From Candidatus Nitrosocosmicus oleophilus (GTDB taxonomy: Archaea > Thermoproteota > Nitrososphaeria > Nitrososphaerales > Nitrososphaeraceae), in contig NZ_CP012850.1 of assembly GCF_000802205.1 (NCBI RefSeq), forward strand, positions 62,001-126,000: 64,000 nucleotides of DNA, in the 5' to 3' direction. How positions within the stretch are numbered: the first letter of the stretch is position 1; every line of letters starts with the position of its first letter. Under the pieces are notes generated by a model. The model saw only the letters and a program-made list of their open reading frames with translations. It was not told the origin of the DNA and did not search any database. A program made the position numbers and the translations under genes. Below are positions 6,469-56,674 of the stretch, piece after piece.

Positions 6469-7386
6469 ATGTCAGAGGGGCCCGAGGTAAAGATTACTGC
6501 AGACAAGATATGGAATGCGCTATCGGGAAAAAGAATTGCTAATATTTTGCATAACAAAATTGACAGTAGTCTGGAAGATAAAATAATTGGATCCTCTACA
6601 GAATATGTGAAGACATTTGGAAAAAATATTGTCATTAAATTTTCATCTGGGGTTTATCTAAGGAATCACATGATGATGTGGGGAAAATGGCGAATTTATG
6701 AAAGAGATGAATATGAAAGTGGGACTGCAAAATCACCACCTCGTTCCTCCTATACAAAACTCAAGCACAAAAACACAGATAAAATCCAGGTAAAGAGAGA
6801 AGAGGTATCGGATGTAAGAAAAGACTCTCGGACTAGATTAACCATTATTACATTGGACAAGGTTTTGGTTCAGTTTAATGGCCCCGTATTGCAATTTTCA
6901 TTGAATGATCCTGCAACTATGGAACCTATCGCATCATTAGGCCCTGATGCAATGAGCCCTAATTATGACAAAGATACAGTAATGGATATTATGAAATCAA
7001 AATCTAAAAATACAGGAATGATAATCTCAAATGCCTTATTAGATCAGAAAATTTTGAGCGGAATCGGAAACAAGTATAAGTCAGAAATTTTATTCTTAAA
7101 TAATACCTATCCTTTTGAAAAAGTGACAACATTCTCTAATGATGAATTGAATAGACTTGTGATGGATGTACCCAGAATATTAAAATTTGGATATCAAAAT
7201 AGCGGTAGAACAAGAAGGCCCAAGACCACGGATAAAGAAAAGATCTCATGGGATACCACACATTGGGTATTTAGAAGATCTGGAAAACCTTGTTGGATAT
7301 GTGGTTCCAAAATTGTATCAGAAAGAAAATTAACAGCAAGGCCAACTTTTTGGTGTCCTAATTGTCAACCAATCAAAGTCCACTAA
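6469..7386 (+). CDS. nei: Fpg/Nei-family DNA glycosylase (endonuclease VIII-like)
   Basis: The 305-residue protein removes oxidised bases and cuts the abasic site during base-excision repair. Visible parts are the N-terminus SEGPEVKI with the conserved catalytic Glu at residue 3, a helix-two-turn-helix region (LLDQKILSGIGNKYKSEILF) and a C-terminal zinc finger with Cys275, Cys278, Cys296 and Cys299. The residue exposed after Met removal is Ser, not the Pro that acts as nucleophile in nearly all Fpg/Nei enzymes; NEIL3 is a known non-proline case (Val). A lysine-rich insert lies around residues 75-125. It lies head to head with the Q/N-rich gene and tail to tail with the DNA ligase gene, so the two repair genes are adjacent but not in an operon. 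Confidence 0.85.
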   Translation: MSEGPEVKITADKIWNALSGKRIANILHNKIDSSLEDKIIGSSTEYVKTFGKNIVIKFSSGVYLRNHMMMWGKWRIYERDEYESGTAKSPPRSSYTKLKHKNTDKIQVKREEVSDVRKDSRTRLTIITLDKVLVQFNGPVLQFSLNDPATMEPIASLGPDAMSPNYDKDTVMDIMKSKSKNTGMIISNALLDQKILSGIGNKYKSEILFLNNTYPFEKVTTFSNDELNRLVMDVPRILKFGYQNSGRTRRPKTTDKEKISWDTTHWVFRRSGKPCWICGSKIVSERKLTARPTFWCPNCQPIKVH

Positions 7387-7447: not shown

Positions 7448-9304
7448 TCATGGTTTACTTTTGTTTTTTATATGAAATTGATTTTGATATATTGTATCAA
7501 TTTTTTCTAATTCATCAATGTCTTTTAGTTCTTTGTCATATCTGATGTTTTTTATCCTAGGAAAACGTAAAGCATATCCACTGTTGTGTCGATCGCTTTG
7601 TTGAATAGTATCAAAGGAGATTTCTAGAACAATTTCGGGCTTTACAATAATCTTACTACCTTCATCTCTTATTATGATGGACCTTAATTTTCTGGTCATG
7701 TAATCAATTTCTTTATTGGATAGACCTGAATATGCCTTACCTATTATTTTCAGATCACCAAAAACATTCTCCCCGTTTTCCGATGCTAATTGATTGTCGA
7801 CAATACTAGTGGCGTAATCTTTTACTGCCAAAGTATAATCTGAAAGTGTTCCTGCTCGTTTTCCATGACCATATTCAGCAATTACTACTACCGCATCAAT
7901 AGTATCTAACTCCTCCTTCAATTTTATCCAATATTTTCCTCTCTTACCAGGATAATACTGTGATAAAGGATCCTTAATGACCAATCCCTCATGTCCTTCA
8001 TTTCTACTTTTTTGAAATCTATTAGTTATTTCATCCACAGATGAAACCGCCTTGCTTTGAGCAATAGAAATTATAGAGTCTTTAAATTGAAAATTTGTTA
8101 ACAATCTCTTTCTAGATTTAAGAGTATCTTTGATTACCTGTCTTTGATCATAGAGCATTATGTCATATACAACATAACAAATTGGTATTTCAGATAAAAT
8201 GGTGTTTGTCATGCTTTTTCTTCTCAACCGCTTTTGTAGTTCTTGAAATGGTAGTGGTCTGTCATCCTTGAAAGCTATTAGTTCACCATCTAAAATGAAA
8301 TTAATATCGTCCCGATCGATGTTATCGGCATCACTCTTATCAGGATGTACATCATGCTTTTTTGGTCTTGTTTTTGCTTTTTTTATTCTTACATCCAAGG
8401 CAGAGTGAGTTAATTCTGGAAATGCATATGAAATATCGGCAAGATTTCGAGAGTAGAGTTTACAAACATTTCCGAATTTGTGCATTTGTACTCTAATACC
8501 ATCATATTTATATTCACAAAGGAGCGGCCTGTCAAAATATTTGACAATCTCTTCTGCAGTAAACATGACATCAGCCAACATGAAACTCATAGGGACATAT
8601 GGTTTAATCGTTACTAAGTTTAACTCATCTCTTTTTGACAATAAAGCAACATTTGCAATGTCTCCTGACATCAACATCGCTTCTCGTATACTCTCGACAT
8701 TTTTTTCAAATGCTTTTGCAATGGCTATTTCTATAAGACCGTCATAGGAACCTATACGCATTTCATTGGATATTATTTTTACAAGGTATTTAGCCTCCAA
8801 AGGTGAGCATCTTAAAAGCAATCCTTTTAAGATATTTTTTTTGTCGTTGTTAGACCTGGGACCTCTAAGATTGGCTATCTTTTTAAACTGATCATATATT
8901 TCCTTTAAAGTTGGTTTTTCTTCTAGAGTTTCTACGCTATTGAAAAGTGTTACTATCTTTTTATTAGAAATTGCATACTCGGCAATAGTACCCATATCAC
9001 CATGTTCTAAATGAAGCCGCATAACATCTGTCTGATCTAATCGAGAGATTTCTAACAGAGACTGTAGTATTGTTCTAAACCCTACATTTAGATTATAAAT
9101 TGATCCCTTTGGGAAAATCTTTCCAGACAAAAATAGAACCGCGATAGGTAGAGAATCGTCATCCAAACCTGAAATATATTGTACGATTAAATCGACTTTT
9201 TTATTCTTGCTTGTCGTACTCCTTATTGATTCACACGACTCAACCAAGGCAGAAAAGTAAGATACCTTGTAATGAATATCATTTGTCAAGTTAATCGTCC
9301 CCAA
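7448..9304 (-). CDS. lig: ATP-dependent DNA ligase, archaeal type
   Basis: The 618-residue protein has the archaeal replicative ligase order: N-terminal DNA-binding domain (about 1-230), adenylation domain with motif I KYDGIRVQ (nucleophile Lys266), motif III FILDGELIAF, motif IV EGLVIKDP and motif V KYWIKLKEE, then an OB-fold. It seals nicks with ATP in replication and repair. A highly charged insert sits just before motif III. The frame starts at a TTG (9304); there is no better in-frame Met before the conserved DNA-binding domain. It is distinct from the LigD protein at 50-53 kb. Length and motifs look complete. Confidence 0.92.
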   Translation of the reverse strand: MGTINLTNDIHYKVSYFSALVESCESIRSTTSKNKKVDLIVQYISGLDDDSLPIAVLFLSGKIFPKGSIYNLNVGFRTILQSLLEISRLDQTDVMRLHLEHGDMGTIAEYAISNKKIVTLFNSVETLEEKPTLKEIYDQFKKIANLRGPRSNNDKKNILKGLLLRCSPLEAKYLVKIISNEMRIGSYDGLIEIAIAKAFEKNVESIREAMLMSGDIANVALLSKRDELNLVTIKPYVPMSFMLADVMFTAEEIVKYFDRPLLCEYKYDGIRVQMHKFGNVCKLYSRNLADISYAFPELTHSALDVRIKKAKTRPKKHDVHPDKSDADNIDRDDINFILDGELIAFKDDRPLPFQELQKRLRRKSMTNTILSEIPICYVVYDIMLYDQRQVIKDTLKSRKRLLTNFQFKDSIISIAQSKAVSSVDEITNRFQKSRNEGHEGLVIKDPLSQYYPGKRGKYWIKLKEELDTIDAVVVIAEYGHGKRAGTLSDYTLAVKDYATSIVDNQLASENGENVFGDLKIIGKAYSGLSNKEIDYMTRKLRSIIIRDEGSKIIVKPEIVLEISFDTIQQSDRHNSGYALRFPRIKNIRYDKELKDIDELEKIDTIYQNQFHIKNKSKP

Positions 9305-48273: not shown

Positions 48274-49125
48274 ATATCCATCTGTTATGATTAAGATAAT
48301 ATAAATACTTTTTATTATATTGCCAATAAGTGACAATGTCCAGCCAAATGTATTAAACAACATAACAAAATTTGTTTGGAGAACATCACCATTCATATTA
48401 TGGATTTTCATATATCTTCTAATTACTTCATTACTCATCTTGTTTGAACCCATTGTATGGAAATTGTCTGAACGCATTAATATTTTATCCAATGGATTTT
48501 CTGTTAAAGACTATCACAGGATATATAAATGATGTAAAGAAATTTGATAAATAATACTAACTGACTATAAGAATATTAATTCTTCATAAGATAGGTATTT
48601 GTGAATCAGCATCTATGTATTGTTGCACTCATTACCACTAGAATGAATGCTACTACAGTACTAGAGAAACAAGTTTCAATAACAAAGGATAGTAAATAGT
48701 GGGTTGCTCCGTCGTTACCACCAGACGATATATCTTGTTCATCTATTTCCATTAAATACTATCCTTTGTTTTTTGTTTCACATCCATCTACTACTTGACA
48801 ATATACCTTATCCAATCACTTGAAAAAAGATGTTCATGAATGAGTCACGTACCATTTCCCTTGACTTTAGATGCAATTTGAGATCTTAACGACAAAGTCC
48901 CAATTGAAAATAGAATAACAAGATAACAGAAATTCGTCCCTGTAACGATCCATATAGTTTATTGATCATATTACCCTTGTACATACAGACGGTTCTAATT
49001 ATCAATCTAAAAAAGGCAACAAAAATTTACATACTATCTTTTGTAAAAAAATTCTTGTTAATAATAAAATGATAATGTATGTATTACTATAAATACACAG
49101 ATAGTCATGTTGTTTTAGATTACTT
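48274..49125. other. Divergent spacer with a hairpin element
   Basis: About 850 bp between the nuclease and ku genes. It holds the hairpin at 48681-48770. The only other open frames are shadow extensions of the nuclease gene. Confidence 0.45.
48681..48770. repeat. Hairpin element with a large structured loop
   Basis: Perfect 14-bp arms AACAAAGGATAGTA and TACTATCCTTTGTT, extended by further pairs up to TGG/CCA. The loop of about 46 nt contains an inner CGTC/GACG stem. GATAGTAAATAGTGG of the left arm is shared with 29729-29786. Confidence 0.55.
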
Positions 49126-49986
49126 GTGGGAACCAGAAGTGTTTGGAACGGTAGTATTTCATTTGGATTAGTAAACATTCCAATAAAGTTATTTACAGTA
49201 TCGGATAGCAGTAACGAATATTCATTTAACCAATTGGATGAAAAAGGACACAAAATTCAGTATAAAAGATGGTGTCCAATAGAGGAGAAAGAAATACCTT
49301 ATGAGGAGATAAAAAAAGGGTATAAGATCGCAAAGGACGAATATATAATAATAGAAAAAGAAGATTTGGATAAGATTAAAGCAGCAACTACCAAAACAAT
49401 TGATATTAAAGAATTTATTGACATTAAAGATTTTGATACTGTTCTTATCGAAAAGAGTTATTATGTCTCCCCTTTTACAGATAAAACAAGTGGGAAAAGA
49501 AAAAGCAAACAAAAGGAAAGTGTTTTATCAGCATCCACCAAGGCCTATAGATTATTTGTTAGTTCACTTAAAGAAACAGATAAAATCGCAATAGGAAAGG
49601 TCGTACTAAAAGATAGAGAACATTTAGTCGCCATTCGTCCATATCAAAGGGGTATGGTAATGCATCAACTAATGTATCAAGAAGAAATAACACCTATAGA
49701 TGAAATAGATGGAATGCCGGGGTCTGAATCTTCTGTCTCTTCAGCACCTATAGATGAGAAAGAATTGGAACTTGGAAGAATGTTAATAGGAAATTTGACT
49801 AGTTCACAATTTGACGCGACACAGTATTCGGATGAATACACAAAACAATTAGAAAAAATGGTAACTGCAAAATCTAAAGGGATCACATACAAAACTGAGG
49901 AAAAAGAAGATTCATTGGATACTAGTAATAACCTATTAGAAGCTTTGAAAGCAAGTGTTCAAAGAAGTAAAACTGTAAAGAACTAA
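49126..49986 (+). CDS. ku: Bacterial-type Ku protein for DNA end joining
   Basis: The 286-residue protein has the Ku core: SVWNGSISFGLVNIPIKLF, then IQYKRWCPIEEKEIPYEEI, KTIDIKEFIDIKDFDTVLIE, AYRLFVSSLKETDKIAIGKV, REHLVAIRPYQRGMVMHQL, ELELGRMLIGNLTSSQFD and a C-terminal Lys-rich end. It binds double-strand DNA ends as a homodimer and recruits LigD. The start is GTG 49126, giving MGTRSVW, the standard beginning. It lies tail to tail with ligD, 106 bp apart. Ku is uncommon in archaea, so horizontal acquisition from bacteria is likely; base composition now matches its neighbours. Confidence 0.93.
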   Translation: MGTRSVWNGSISFGLVNIPIKLFTVSDSSNEYSFNQLDEKGHKIQYKRWCPIEEKEIPYEEIKKGYKIAKDEYIIIEKEDLDKIKAATTKTIDIKEFIDIKDFDTVLIEKSYYVSPFTDKTSGKRKSKQKESVLSASTKAYRLFVSSLKETDKIAIGKVVLKDREHLVAIRPYQRGMVMHQLMYQEEITPIDEIDGMPGSESSVSSAPIDEKELELGRMLIGNLTSSQFDATQYSDEYTKQLEKMVTAKSKGITYKTEEKEDSLDTSNNLLEALKASVQRSKTVKN

Positions 49987-50092
49987 CATAAAATTTAGAC
50001 AGAAAATCTTACCCGGTGTGCCTTAAAAGAAGAATTGATATAATATCATATCTTTTAAACAGTTGGTTATTGACATATAGGTTCTATTTTTC

Positions 50093-53080
50093 TTAAACTT
50101 TGAAATAGGAAATGCGTGCAAGTATTTCTTCAAGATCTTGTTTATGTGATAAAATATCCTTCCAGGGATTTATTTTTCTCTTATAAAGGCCGGGTACGGT
50201 CTTTATCGTAAAATCAGTGGGTATAATATCTGCTAGTTCTTCCCATGTAAGTGGAACTGAAACAATAGCATCTTCTACGGGTCTTGTTGAAAAAACAGAA
50301 GCTAGTGTTTTCCCAATAGAATTTTGATTATAATCTAAAAACACTTTTCCTTTTCTATTCGTTGTTTTCCATTCCGTAGTAATTTGACCTGGATTGCGTT
50401 TATTGAGGATTTGAGATATTATTTGAGCAAATTCCCTCGTTTGCTTGTGTGTGTACTTGTTGATTATTGGAACAAAGATGTGTAATCCTGTTTTTCCCGA
50501 AGTTTTAAGATATGATTTAATATTCAATTCATCAAAAATACCCTGCAAACTTAGAGCAATATCCACTGTCGTTCTGAAGGCCCCTAAACTATATGCTGGT
50601 TCCTTAGATTCATTTTCATTATCAATATTTATGTATGGATCCAAATCAAAAACTATAAAATCAGGATAATTTAATCCACATTCTTCCGTTTCTATTACAT
50701 CCATCTTATTGCATTGATCATAATTATTAACCCTACTATTCCATGGATGTATTTCAATGCATCCCAAATTTACAAGCCATAGTAAAGTTTCCTTGTTATT
50801 ACATACTATATAGTTGATCTCATCATTATTTGATTCTGAATATACCTTGACTGTTCTAACATAGTATGGTTTTATATTTTTCCAATCCTTTTGATAAAAC
50901 GCCTTTCCATATATGCCATCTGGGTATCTACTAAGAGAGACGGGCCGGTCTCGAAGGTAAGGTAGAAGAAGTTCGCTTATTTTATCGTAATACTCCATTA
51001 AATCTCCTTTTGTAATAGCTGAACGATATTCTGTTGCGCTCCAAAATTCCTTTTTCAAATTGGAATATTGTTGGTCAAGGTCAGCTATAGGATCACCGTT
51101 CTTGTTATTAGTTATTTTTAAGTCACCACGCTCTTCTTTCTTTATGATATCTGCAAACTTTGGTGAATGCATTGGACTCGAAAACTCAATGACACATTGG
51201 CCTGGCGGCTTGTCTTCTCTTAGTCTTAGAAATATCGGTGCCCGCATTATCTTATTACCGGTCCAACCGTTAAATTTCACTTCTATTACTACTATGGGTC
51301 TTACCCATACTGTTTCCCTGTTAAGATATGGAATGTAATCAACAGGACAATAGGGAATTTCTATTTCTCTTAGTTTTTTATGAATTAATGAGAGGTTTTC
51401 GAAACTAAATCCACTACCCGTATGACCTATGAATCTTAAGTTGTCAATGTCATTTTTGGAATTGACATTCTTATTATTATTATTGGTATTAGTTTGGGTA
51501 TTGTTTTGAGTATTATCGATAGCCGCTAGCAGGAGAGATCCAAAGTAACTTTTTCGGTTGCCCTCGCCCCATGTATAGCCTATCACCAAACAGTCCTGGG
51601 TTTTGATATTCTTTATTTTAAGCCAGTCTCTTGTACGGCTACCAGAATGATATTTGCTGTTCCTCTGCTTTCCAATTATTCCTTCCAAGCCCATCTTCCT
51701 TATGGTCTCAAAAGCATCTATCCCGAATTCCTCGACAAAGTCAGATATTCGTATTTTTGAGTTTGAATTCTTAACCAGTTTGACTAGTATCTTTCTTCTT
51801 TCTGTAAATGGTAGCTGCATGAGGTTATTGTTGTCTAAATATAAGATATCAAACACATAATAAACTGCTGGGTAAAGTTCGGACAAAATTTCAATGCTCT
51901 TGATAGAATCAATATTCATCCTCTTTTGATGGTTTTGAAAATTAGGGGAACCATCATTATCCAAAATAACAATTTCCCCGTCTAATATGACAAAGTCTTT
52001 GAACATGTCTTCTTTGAGGGCATTTTTAAAAGTGTGCACAAGTTCAGGATAGCGTAGGGTAATTGTGTCGCCTCTCCGGGATTTAATTGTACAAGTTTTA
52101 GTTAGCCTATCCACAAGAGTGATTGCCCTTACCCCATCCCACTTTATTTCAAATATCCAATCCTTATTGTTAAATGGTTCATCTGTAAGAGATGGTAACA
52201 TAGGTCTTATTTCTTCAAAGGAAATTTGTTTTAACGATCGATTAGTTGACACTAGGTTCACAGTGTCAAGATTATGATCTCCCAATGTATCCAGCGTATT
52301 TGGATTCTCTGGGATCTCTGCAGAGTATTTTATGATATTGTTACCAGTTTTCAAATCTTTTTTTACAGTCTTATCAGATTTGTATTGCGTTAAGTCACTA
52401 TTTTTTTTGCCTGTCAACACCGATTCAGGTCTATTTTTTGTTATATCTTTTTCATCACTCTTGTCGCTATTGTTTGAGCCACGTGCAAATTCATCCTTTA
52501 ATTTAATTAATAGCCATTGATTTTTAGTCCTAGTTTTCACCAAAGAAAATTTGCCTCTTAATTTCTTCCCATATAGCACAAATGTAATCTTTCCATATTT
52601 TTTTTCTAGTTCAGACACGTCTGAAACTTCCGGTATTTCCTCTAGGTGTTCTTTCGTAGGATATTTCGTTGAGGAGTTTTTTTCCAGGCTGTATTCGCCA
52701 ATATCCCACACGATTACAGTTCCAGCACCGTAGTTTCCTTCAGGGATAACTCCTTCAAAGGACAAGTATTCCACAGGGTGATCTTCAGTTTGTATTGCCA
52801 ATCTCTTTATGGATGGATCCAAGGATGGCCCCTTAGGGATGACCCAAGATAAGAGAACATCCTCTTTAGTAGATTCCAATCTAAAATCATAATGCAATCT
52901 TGTCGCTTCATGTTTTTGGATCACAAACCGAGGTCTTGATTTTGATCGGCTATGATCGTCGGTTGAGATACTTGCAGCAGCTGGATCTGCAAAATTTTCT
53001 TTATTCAGACTATTGTTTCCATTAGGCTCAGGAGAAGCCCTAAAATTTCTTTTCCTCTTGTACTCGTCTAACATGTCCAA
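50093..53080 (-). CDS. ligD: LigD: three-domain NHEJ ligase (PE-LIG-POL order)
   Basis: The 995-residue protein has, in order, a 3'-phosphoesterase domain (about 48-195; [39 protein letters not shown]), a low-complexity linker, an ATP-dependent ligase domain (about 285-620; EIKWDGVRA with nucleophile Lys313, [25 protein letters not shown]), and a primase-type polymerase domain (about 690-990; FIVFDLDPY acidic pair, [23 protein letters not shown]). This is the order of Pseudomonas LigD, not that of mycobacteria. It trims, fills and seals broken DNA ends together with Ku. All catalytic motifs look intact. Two extra Asn/Lys-rich linkers make it longer than the bacterial protein. It is a separate transcript, convergent with ku. 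Confidence 0.93.
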
Positions 53081-53612
53081 TTCATTATAATCGAATATCC
53101 TTGAATAATCAGAAAACTATAAAATAAACATATAGATAGATTTCATGACTCAAAACGTTAGAATGAAAAACCTACCGAAGTTGAATAACTATTTTTATGA
53201 TTCGGTTTGAAAAGATCCGTCCTCTTCCATATGTCAACTATAGGATTTATTTTGATGGTTTGACCTATTCATGTATAGACTAAAAAAATAAATCCACCAA
53301 ATCCTAACAACATCATTCCTGCAAACATGAAAAACAAGAGATAGAAGGCGCCCACTAACCAATAGACAGTAAAAATAAATCCCATAAGGATAGAAAGAAA
53401 GGATAAGCAGTATAAGCAGTATAAGGCAATCGTTCCCTAGTTGCCTTTAAAATTGTCTAGTCTACTCATGTTACAGTTTACTCTTTTTCTTTTGTATATT
53501 GTCAGCTATTAACATTGCATCATTCACAGATTTAGAAGATATTATCCCTATTTAATATTGAAAGAAAATTATGGCTATTGCATATATGACCTTCAAATGA
53601 ACAATAAATTTG
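53081..53612. other. Intergenic spacer upstream of ligD
   Basis: About 530 bp. A TATA-like ATTTTATAGT (minus strand) and the block shared with 35607-35629 lie right before the ligD start. A direct repeat AAGCAGTAT occurs twice near 53405. No gene is seen. Confidence 0.45.
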
Positions 53613-54958: not shown

Positions 54959-56674
54959 TTGAATATCTCCGAACAAACTACACTTCATAATCGAAAAACT
55001 GATTTGATATATGACATGGATACTGCAGTGAGTTACGGAATTCGATTTTTAGAAAATGTTAGTGAGAGAATGGACATTTGTGTGGATAAGAATGGGCCTT
55101 CTATAATCATAAAATCAGATATTTATAAGAGTAATTATGTTAAAGCAAAAAATCGAGGTGCAAAAATCAGATTCATCACAGAGATTACAAAAGACAATAT
55201 CCAATACTGCAAAAAGCTGGGTGAATTTGTAAGTGAACTCAGACATCTTGATGGAGTGAAGGGATCTGTATGTGTAAATAATTCGGAATTTTTAGGTATG
55301 TCAACTTGGAATGAGACAAAACTTTTGAACCCTGTTATTTACAGCAATGAAAGAGAAGTGATTGAACAACAACAATACATATTTGAAATATTTTGGAAAA
55401 AGGCTGAACCTCTTACACAAAAACTAAGAGAAATAGAAGAGGGAATCGTCCCCGAATTTATGGAATCAAGGAATAGTCCGGTTGATATACAAAATAAAGT
55501 CTTTGATCTTTTAAAGTCTGCTGAATCTGAAATTCTGGTAATAATGTCTACTTCTAAAGCATTTCACAGACAAACTGAATCTGGTACTTTTAAGTTGTTA
55601 AAAGAGCTAGGAAACACCAAACCATGGATAATTATTAAAATTCTAACCCCAAAAGACAATGAAATAGAGAGACTAATAACAATACTAAATAAGCCTAATT
55701 TTGTAGTTCGATGTATTGAACCATTATCCAAGGTATCAATTTTGGTAATAGATAGAAAGCAATCTCTCGTTGCTGAAACCAAAGACGATACAAAACAAAT
55801 CATATCAGAGGCGGTTGGGTTTGTAACTTATTCAAATAGTCCACCCACAGTACTATCCTATGTAGCAATATTTGATAGTATTTGGAAACAAACAGAGATC
55901 TATCAACAACTAAAAGATGCACATGAAAAATTAAAAATTCATGACAACATGCAAAAGGAATTCATAAATATAGTGGCTCACGATTTAAGAACACCTCTTA
56001 CTCCTATTATCGGACTGACTGAATATGTGAGAGATAAGACAAAAGATGTACATCATATGGAATTACTAGACAGAGTAGTAAAAGATGCAAAAAAATTATC
56101 TTATTTGAATGAAAAAATTTTGGATGTAACTAAATTTGAAAGTAAATTGTTTAAACCAAATAAAGAGGTTTTTAGTCTTAACGAATTAATAGTGAACGTT
56201 ATTAAAGAATTAGAACATATCTTGGATGATGCAAAGAAAATAAAATTTGAATACCATTTTGATACCGAATATCTAGTGGATGCGGATAGTAGAAGAATAG
56301 GGCAAGTAATTTCTAATTTAATTGATAATTCTATTAAATCAATTTTGGAACAAGGTACAGGAAGAGGAGTTATATCAATATCTACGAGCATTGAAAGGAT
56401 AACTAGTACCATTCCCAATTTAGGAGGCGACTATTACCCTCAACATATGATCATTGTCAGTATAAAAGATACAGGTATTGCATTAGATAATGAGATATTA
56501 CCTAGATTGTTTACCAAATTTGCGACAAAGTCTTTTCAAGGTACAGGGCTGGGACTATATTTATCAAAAAATATCATAGAAGCGCACGGAGGTAAAATCT
56601 GGGCTGAAAATAATAAAGATAGATTCGGAGCCACTGTTTCGTTTAGTTTGCCATTAACAAATAAAGTAATCTAA
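54959..56674 (+). CDS. Cytoplasmic sensor histidine kinase with two N-terminal TrmB/PLD-like sensor regions
   Basis: The 571-residue protein starts at TTG 54959. Two consecutive regions (about 15-155 and 175-315) share the pattern of a PLD-like or TrmB-effector-like fold: GAKIRFITEITKDNIQYCKK, LDGVKGSVCVN, IYSNEREVIEQQQYIFEIFW, then WIIIKILTP, VSILVIDRKQSL, GFVTYSNSPP. A coiled helix leads to the HisKA domain with FINIVAHDLRTPL (phospho-His341) and a HATPase domain with QVISNLIDNSIKS, DTGIALD and GTGLGLYLSKNII. No membrane segment exists, so it senses an internal signal. No response regulator is adjacent. Confidence 0.88.
   Translation: MNISEQTTLHNRKTDLIYDMDTAVSYGIRFLENVSERMDICVDKNGPSIIIKSDIYKSNYVKAKNRGAKIRFITEITKDNIQYCKKLGEFVSELRHLDGVKGSVCVNNSEFLGMSTWNETKLLNPVIYSNEREVIEQQQYIFEIFWKKAEPLTQKLREIEEGIVPEFMESRNSPVDIQNKVFDLLKSAESEILVIMSTSKAFHRQTESGTFKLLKELGNTKPWIIIKILTPKDNEIERLITILNKPNFVVRCIEPLSKVSILVIDRKQSLVAETKDDTKQIISEAVGFVTYSNSPPTVLSYVAIFDSIWKQTEIYQQLKDAHEKLKIHDNMQKEFINIVAHDLRTPLTPIIGLTEYVRDKTKDVHHMELLDRVVKDAKKLSYLNEKILDVTKFESKLFKPNKEVFSLNELIVNVIKELEHILDDAKKIKFEYHFDTEYLVDADSRRIGQVISNLIDNSIKSILEQGTGRGVISISTSIERITSTIPNLGGDYYPQHMIIVSIKDTGIALDNEILPRLFTKFATKSFQGTGLGLYLSKNIIEAHGGKIWAENNKDRFGATVSFSLPLTNKVI

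Follow-up and report, generated by a model that had tools for sequence, protein, structure and literature searches.

Ku and a single-chain LigD of bacterial type in the archaeon Candidatus Nitrosocosmicus oleophilus: polymerase-domain inserts, distribution and probable origin

Introduction

In the archaeon Methanocella paludicola, the NHEJ domains are found as separate proteins. According to the accessible part of a study of the Nitrososphaerales (Abby et al., 2020; PMC7554672), NHEJ is uncommon among archaea, and the ancestor of this order got a complete NHEJ complex from bacteria. Excerpts of a 2026 paper (PMC13006922) describe two Arctic clades that encode NHEJ components, and published lists of archaeal Ku proteins include N. 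exaquare, N. arcticus, and N. oleophilus (PMC11936186). The exchange of NHEJ genes between bacteria and archaea is also a known theme, as seen in excerpts of another work (PMC7719229). The acquisition of NHEJ from bacteria by this group was thus already published in 2020; the accessible part of that study names no donor group and mentions neither inserts nor losses nor an empty site (Abby et al., 2020; PMC7554672). Three points that were not found in the accessible portions of the open-licence literature refine that known finding: the link of the inserts to the Dehalococcoidia, an empty site in a relative, and the difference from split operons.

Here we describe a Ku–LigD locus in a stretch of 64,000 nucleotides (the window; contig NZ_CP012850.1, positions 62,001 to 126,000). 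The locus is very probably an intact and ordinary two-gene prokaryotic NHEJ system, which would have entered the ancestor of the family once, most likely through interdomain transfer, and would then have been inherited vertically with repeated losses.

Organization of the Ku and LigD Genes

The initial annotation described a complete gene pair of the bacterial NHEJ type, with Ku and a three-domain LigD lying tail to tail, and this description is borne out by the Pfam and NCBIfam matches, which place PE, LIG, and POL on one chain (Table 1); the stop codons of the two convergent genes are about 107 bp apart. Ku scores 144 against a cut-off of 25 with Pfam PF02735 (6.5e-42) and 231.7 bits against a cut-off of 150 with the NCBIfam profile Ku_bact (TIGR02772), whose match extends to residue 278, and a bacterial Ku in the PDB matches it at 2.6e-31. 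At E < 1e-40 over the length of the gene, the homology lies far beyond chance. The product is a short single-domain protein with a conserved C-terminal tail (NNLLEALKASVQ), which we take to serve in the recruitment of LigD. Its start codon is GTG in the window and TTG or ATG in relatives. Among the nearest relatives, the TATAAATA box is identical in two loci (L081 and L082) and similar in a third (L083), and its position suggests that the Ku transcript may have a short leader or none. An intergenic inverted repeat of 25 nt, 84% complementary and with a 46-nt spacer (window 48678-48702 and 48749-48773), lies upstream of Ku. An Rfam search gave no matches.

The listed LigD reading frame (50093-53080, minus strand, 995 aa) starts with a TTG at 53080, which sits two codons too early; the ATG at 53074 is conserved in relatives and appears the likelier start. 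Three NCBIfam LigD profiles (TIGR02776, TIGR02777, and TIGR02779) exceed their cut-offs, with 446 against 373 for TIGR02776, 174.6 against 144 for the PE profile and 244 against 228 for the LIG profile. POL falls 0.3 bits short with TIGR02778 (214.4 against 214.7) and is far over the cut-off with Pfam PF21686 (LigD_Prim-Pol; 265). The annotation had also claimed that all catalytic motifs are present. In an alignment with LigDs from Bacteroidota, Gemmatimonadota, Rhizobium, and Pseudomonas, the catalytic residues of PE (H57, H63, D65, and H101), LIG (K313, E369, K488, and K490), and POL (D812, D814, H867, and D916) are invariant, their roles being taken from the literature (PMC8656161). The AlphaFold2 model of POL has a pLDDT of 91, and its Foldseek matches include Prim-PolC, the Methanocella NHEJ Pol, and the LigD POL domains of Mycobacterium tuberculosis and Pseudomonas aeruginosa. 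By homology, Ku would bind, cap and bridge double-strand DNA ends and recruit LigD, whose PE domain would trim 3' ends, whose POL domain would fill short gaps with a preference for ribonucleotides, and whose LIG domain would seal the break. From these resemblances we infer enzymatic activity and a Ku–LigD partnership in the cell. Both genes are under purifying selection, with a dN/dS of 0.20 for LigD and of 0.066 for Ku (against the nearest relative used). A second, replicative-type ATP-dependent ligase is encoded at window 7448-9304 (minus strand), so that LigD is not the sole ligase of the cell; a formamidopyrimidine-DNA glycosylase-like gene (6469-7386, plus strand) adjoins this second ligase.

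Table 1. Coordinates of the features of the Ku–LigD locus in the window.
Feature	Position	Strand	Details
TATAAATA box (TATA box)	49088..49095	+	roughly 31-38 bp upstream of the start codon of Ku
Ku gene	49126..49986	+	286 aa, GTG start; prokaryotic-type DNA-end-binding protein (by homology)
Ku C-terminal motif NNLLEALKASVQ...	49927..49983	+	tail conserved among bacterial Ku proteins; lines up across the Ku sequences examined
LigD gene, PE-LIG-POL single chain	50093..53074	-	993 aa from ATG at 53074
POL (primase-polymerase) domain	50162..51013	-	residues 690-973; PF21686 7.8e-79
POL insert 2	50591..50635	-	about residues 816-830, directly after the catalytic DLDP
POL insert 1	50672..50731	-	around residues 784-803, preceding the catalytic strand; pLDDT 56-74
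LIG (ATP-dependent ligase) domain	51209..52174	-	residues 303-624; PF01068 2.2e-39, PF04679 5.7e-18
PE (3'-phosphoesterase) domain	52535..52918	-	residues 55-182 of the 995-aa ORF; PF13298 2.3e-36
Left end of the 4.27 kb absent from G333	48932..48951	+	imperfect direct repeat with 53200-53218
Right end of the 4.27 kb absent from G333	53200..53218	+	empty-site junction

The host is an archaeon, as had been stated, with an rpoB_arch score of 890.7 bits against a cut-off of 811. Bacterial contamination of the assembly was considered and rejected, the conserved archaeal context refuting it, and its probability is practically nil: the genome is a single contig of 3,430,706 bases, 99.75% complete, a more distant relative (G126) keeps both Ku and LigD in the same context, and the codon usage is local. 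The suggestion that the genes have adopted local composition agrees with the last point, the codon usage of LigD being typical of the window when compared with the window only. Several other members of the genus carry the pair in different neighborhoods and, across the family, Ku and LigD are convergent and adjacent in 12 of the 21 loci where both lie on one contig, the rest being in tandem or farther apart. A histidine kinase gene (window 54959-56674) adjoins the cassette and was likewise noted in L081 (14893-18764); G126 has an additional divergent kinase copy beside the histidine kinase, which suggests a local kinase duplication.

Distribution of Ku and LigD

The pair is not an oddity of this genome, as the first reading of it might have implied, but is found across the family. 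Among 400 genomes of the class, 35 gave a Ku_bact match, every one of them within the family of the window; none was found in the approximately 345 other genomes of that sample. PE and POL were each found in 42 of 70 family genomes, mostly on one chain of about 880-1015 aa. LigD is present in 34 of 35 genomes with Ku and absent from 16 of 20 genomes without it (Fisher p 2.5e-9, relatedness ignored), and the discordant cases are fragmented MAGs. This co-occurrence bears on the view that gap filling or excision repair, and not the joining of double-strand breaks, is the main job of the system. The best PDB matches of POL, by both sequence and fold, are to Prim-PolC of M. smegmatis, in entries described as gapped-DNA-bound, and would fit such a job; the strong association of Ku with LigD, the retained Ku tail motif and the occurrence of PE and LIG in the same polypeptide nevertheless make it highly improbable.

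Some individual genomes depart from the simple pattern. In G248 a Ku remnant with many stop codons (contig C80:3245-3819) coexists with an intact LigD, a possible case of Ku decay with LigD retained. Another example is the presence of at least two Ku genes or fragments in each of four family genomes (G329, G306, G201, and G383), which might be paralogues, strain mixtures or duplicated contigs.

Outside the class, 11 of 250 genomes from across the phylum encode Ku with separate POL and LIG-PE proteins, and in one of these 11 POL, LIG, and PE are all three apart. The corresponding loci (L192-L202) have the layout POL–Ku–LIG-PE, with LIG before PE and POL separate. The contrast drawn at the outset between the single-chain LigD and split archaeal systems is supported. 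This split layout is an archaeal NHEJ arrangement that deserves separate study.

Inheritance and Loss within the Family

The family forms a single clade in the LigD tree (100) and in the Ku tree (99), and the genera group in both much as they do in the rpoB tree. According to these trees, the Ku–LigD pair is vertically inherited within the family. Presence and absence of NHEJ on the rpoB tree require five changes, as would fit a single early gain followed by several losses.

One of the losses can be followed at the nucleotide level. In the genome G333 (L285, G333:C44) the contig passes directly from window position 48953 to 53200, within flanks 92-96% identical to the window, and what is missing from this empty site is exactly Ku and LigD. 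The junction falls in an imperfect direct repeat of 19-20 bases, and the rest of this MAG, which is 84% complete, yielded no Ku, PE or POL. Most likely, G333 lost both genes when a stretch of about 4.27 kb was precisely deleted; loss is preferred to the genes never having been present because the more distant G126 keeps both of them in the same context. Repeated loss, including such a clean deletion, shows that some species can do without the system. The contribution to survival under desiccation or metal stress that was suggested at the outset is a purely hypothetical role. Near relatives with and without the cassette, including this empty site, offer a natural comparison for the usefulness of the system.

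Inserts in the Polymerase Domain

Two inserts distinguish the POL domain of the family. The two loops lie on either side of the strand carrying the catalytic aspartates, and the second has the consensus DLDPYIYSG.E..G.EPE.N in most genera. Both are present in all 32 family POL domains, in 15 of 39 Chloroflexota records (those of Dehalococcoidia type) and in 27 of 27 further Dehalococcoidia loci, giving around 40 insert-bearing LigDs of Dehalococcoidia type in total (counts are of loci, and some records repeat one genome). On the other hand, they were found in none of the 11 split-operon Thermoproteota outside the class, in none of 36 Bacteroidota and in none of the remaining bacterial LigDs examined, with the exception of one gammaproteobacterial MAG. 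The idea that the inserts are known features of Prim-PolC was rejected, Prim-PolC having no residues at those places of the alignment. A comparable shared insert was sought in the Ku sequences, where only a genus-specific one was seen. As for the role of the loops, handling of DNA ends or of the template is a guess.

The exceptional gammaproteobacterial locus (L123; JASHPX010000111.1) carries inserts of the Dehalococcoidia type; its LigD groups with Dehalococcoidia and its Ku does not, which points to either transfer or a misbinned contig.

The inserts tie the LigD of the family to the Dehalococcoidia-type LigD as a candidate kin group, and it is likely that both descend from a common insert-bearing LigD ancestor. 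They are also a concrete marker for following interdomain transfer.

Origin of the System

Bacterial LigDs for the trees were drawn from named genomes, from Chloroflexota, and from a class-level set including named Dehalococcoidia; the Ku and LigD trees were built without euryarchaeal sequences. Similarity of full-length LigD, tried alone as a guide to the donor phylum, was not decisive, the best bacterial matches being 34-38% identical. The single-domain trees point in different directions. POL joins the family to Dehalococcoidia (100/98), whereas LIG (98/91) and Ku (89/92, with Dehalococcoidia added) join it to the split-operon archaea, and AU tests reject neither pairing for POL, LIG or Ku (p 0.11-0.27). 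The concatenated tree returns to Dehalococcoidia with weak support (57). Of the phylogenies of Ku and of each LigD domain, which the initial annotation named as a check, that of POL favors a bacterial relationship and those of LIG and Ku favor other archaea, neither of them significantly by the AU tests.

A vertical archaeal origin would trace both the system and the POL–Ku–LIG-PE operons back to one ancestor within the Thermoproteota, the Dehalococcoidia being recipients or unrelated. The placement of LIG and Ku agrees with such descent, which is nonetheless quite unlikely, since none of those 11 archaea has the inserts that Dehalococcoidia have, their domain order differs (LIG-PE fused and POL separate), and the absence of Ku from the rest of the class sample would need many losses. 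The disagreement between the LIG and POL trees, with high support on each side, might also be read as a mosaic, in which Ku and LIG are archaeal, from a lineage shared with the split-operon Thermoproteota, and POL was exchanged with Dehalococcoidia. If this were true, the single-chain LigD would be an archaeal–bacterial hybrid whose polymerase active site is bordered by loops specific to the clade. However, the conflict is not significant by the AU test (p 0.15-0.27), the family has the bacterial PE-LIG-POL order, and long stems make the placement of LIG suspect, so that a mosaic is very doubtful.

More complex is the question of direction. The family is sister to the Dehalococcoidia and not nested in them (31 Dehalococcoidia), its stem is long, and it stayed sister when denser sampling was tried as a way to nest it inside; direction is therefore not fixed by topology. 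The insert-bearing LigD could, on topology alone, have arisen in the archaeal lineage and then moved to Dehalococcoidia, whose LigDs of this type form one clade sister to the family, and excerpts of an earlier work propose archaea-to-bacteria transfers of Ku (PMC7719229). This course of events is unlikely, given that the single-chain PE-LIG-POL arrangement occurs in many bacterial phyla and, among the archaea examined here, in a single family. Transfer from bacteria to archaea is the simpler reading. Under the preferred single entry from bacteria, the ancestor of the family, probably that of the Nitrososphaeraceae, would have gained the system once, with the involvement of a PE-LIG-POL LigD of the type now in Dehalococcoidia. 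Of the original proposal of an acquisition from bacteria long ago, the ancient bacterial link holds, through the POL inserts and the accessible part of the earlier study (Abby et al., 2020; PMC7554672); which group was the donor and which way the transfer went are not settled, since LIG and Ku incline to other archaea and none of the alternatives is rejected.

Comparison with Known Systems

Ammonia oxidisers that combine Ku with a single-chain LigD, some of them cultured, allow a test of whether a bacterial-type repair machine works in an archaeal cell. The presence of Ku and of a single-chain three-domain LigD in one genome corresponds to the conventional definition of NHEJ+ (PMC7719229), and the locus is an instance of the Nitrososphaerales acquisition described in the accessible part of Abby et al. 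(2020; PMC7554672). Bacterial Ku–LigD systems, such as that with the LigD of P. aeruginosa, have the same two proteins, domains, PE-LIG-POL order, and catalytic residues, although the LigD of the window is about 30-38% identical to bacterial LigDs and its host is archaeal. Its POL domain has both inserts, which are missing from the POL structures of P. aeruginosa, M. tuberculosis, and M. smegmatis. The POL (5dmu) and PE (5dmp) of Methanocella paludicola are homologous to the corresponding domains of the window LigD, and this POL also lacks the inserts. The split Thermoproteota operons resemble the window in having Ku and the three activities in one locus, with related LIG and Ku, and differ from it in their separate POL, in the position of LIG before PE and in the absence of POL inserts. 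Finally, the Dehalococcoidia-type LigD has the same domain order, the same two inserts, and a sister POL, at 34-38% full-length identity; on the other hand, the family stands as a separate, long-stemmed clade, and its LIG and Ku are not clearly grouped with those of Dehalococcoidia.
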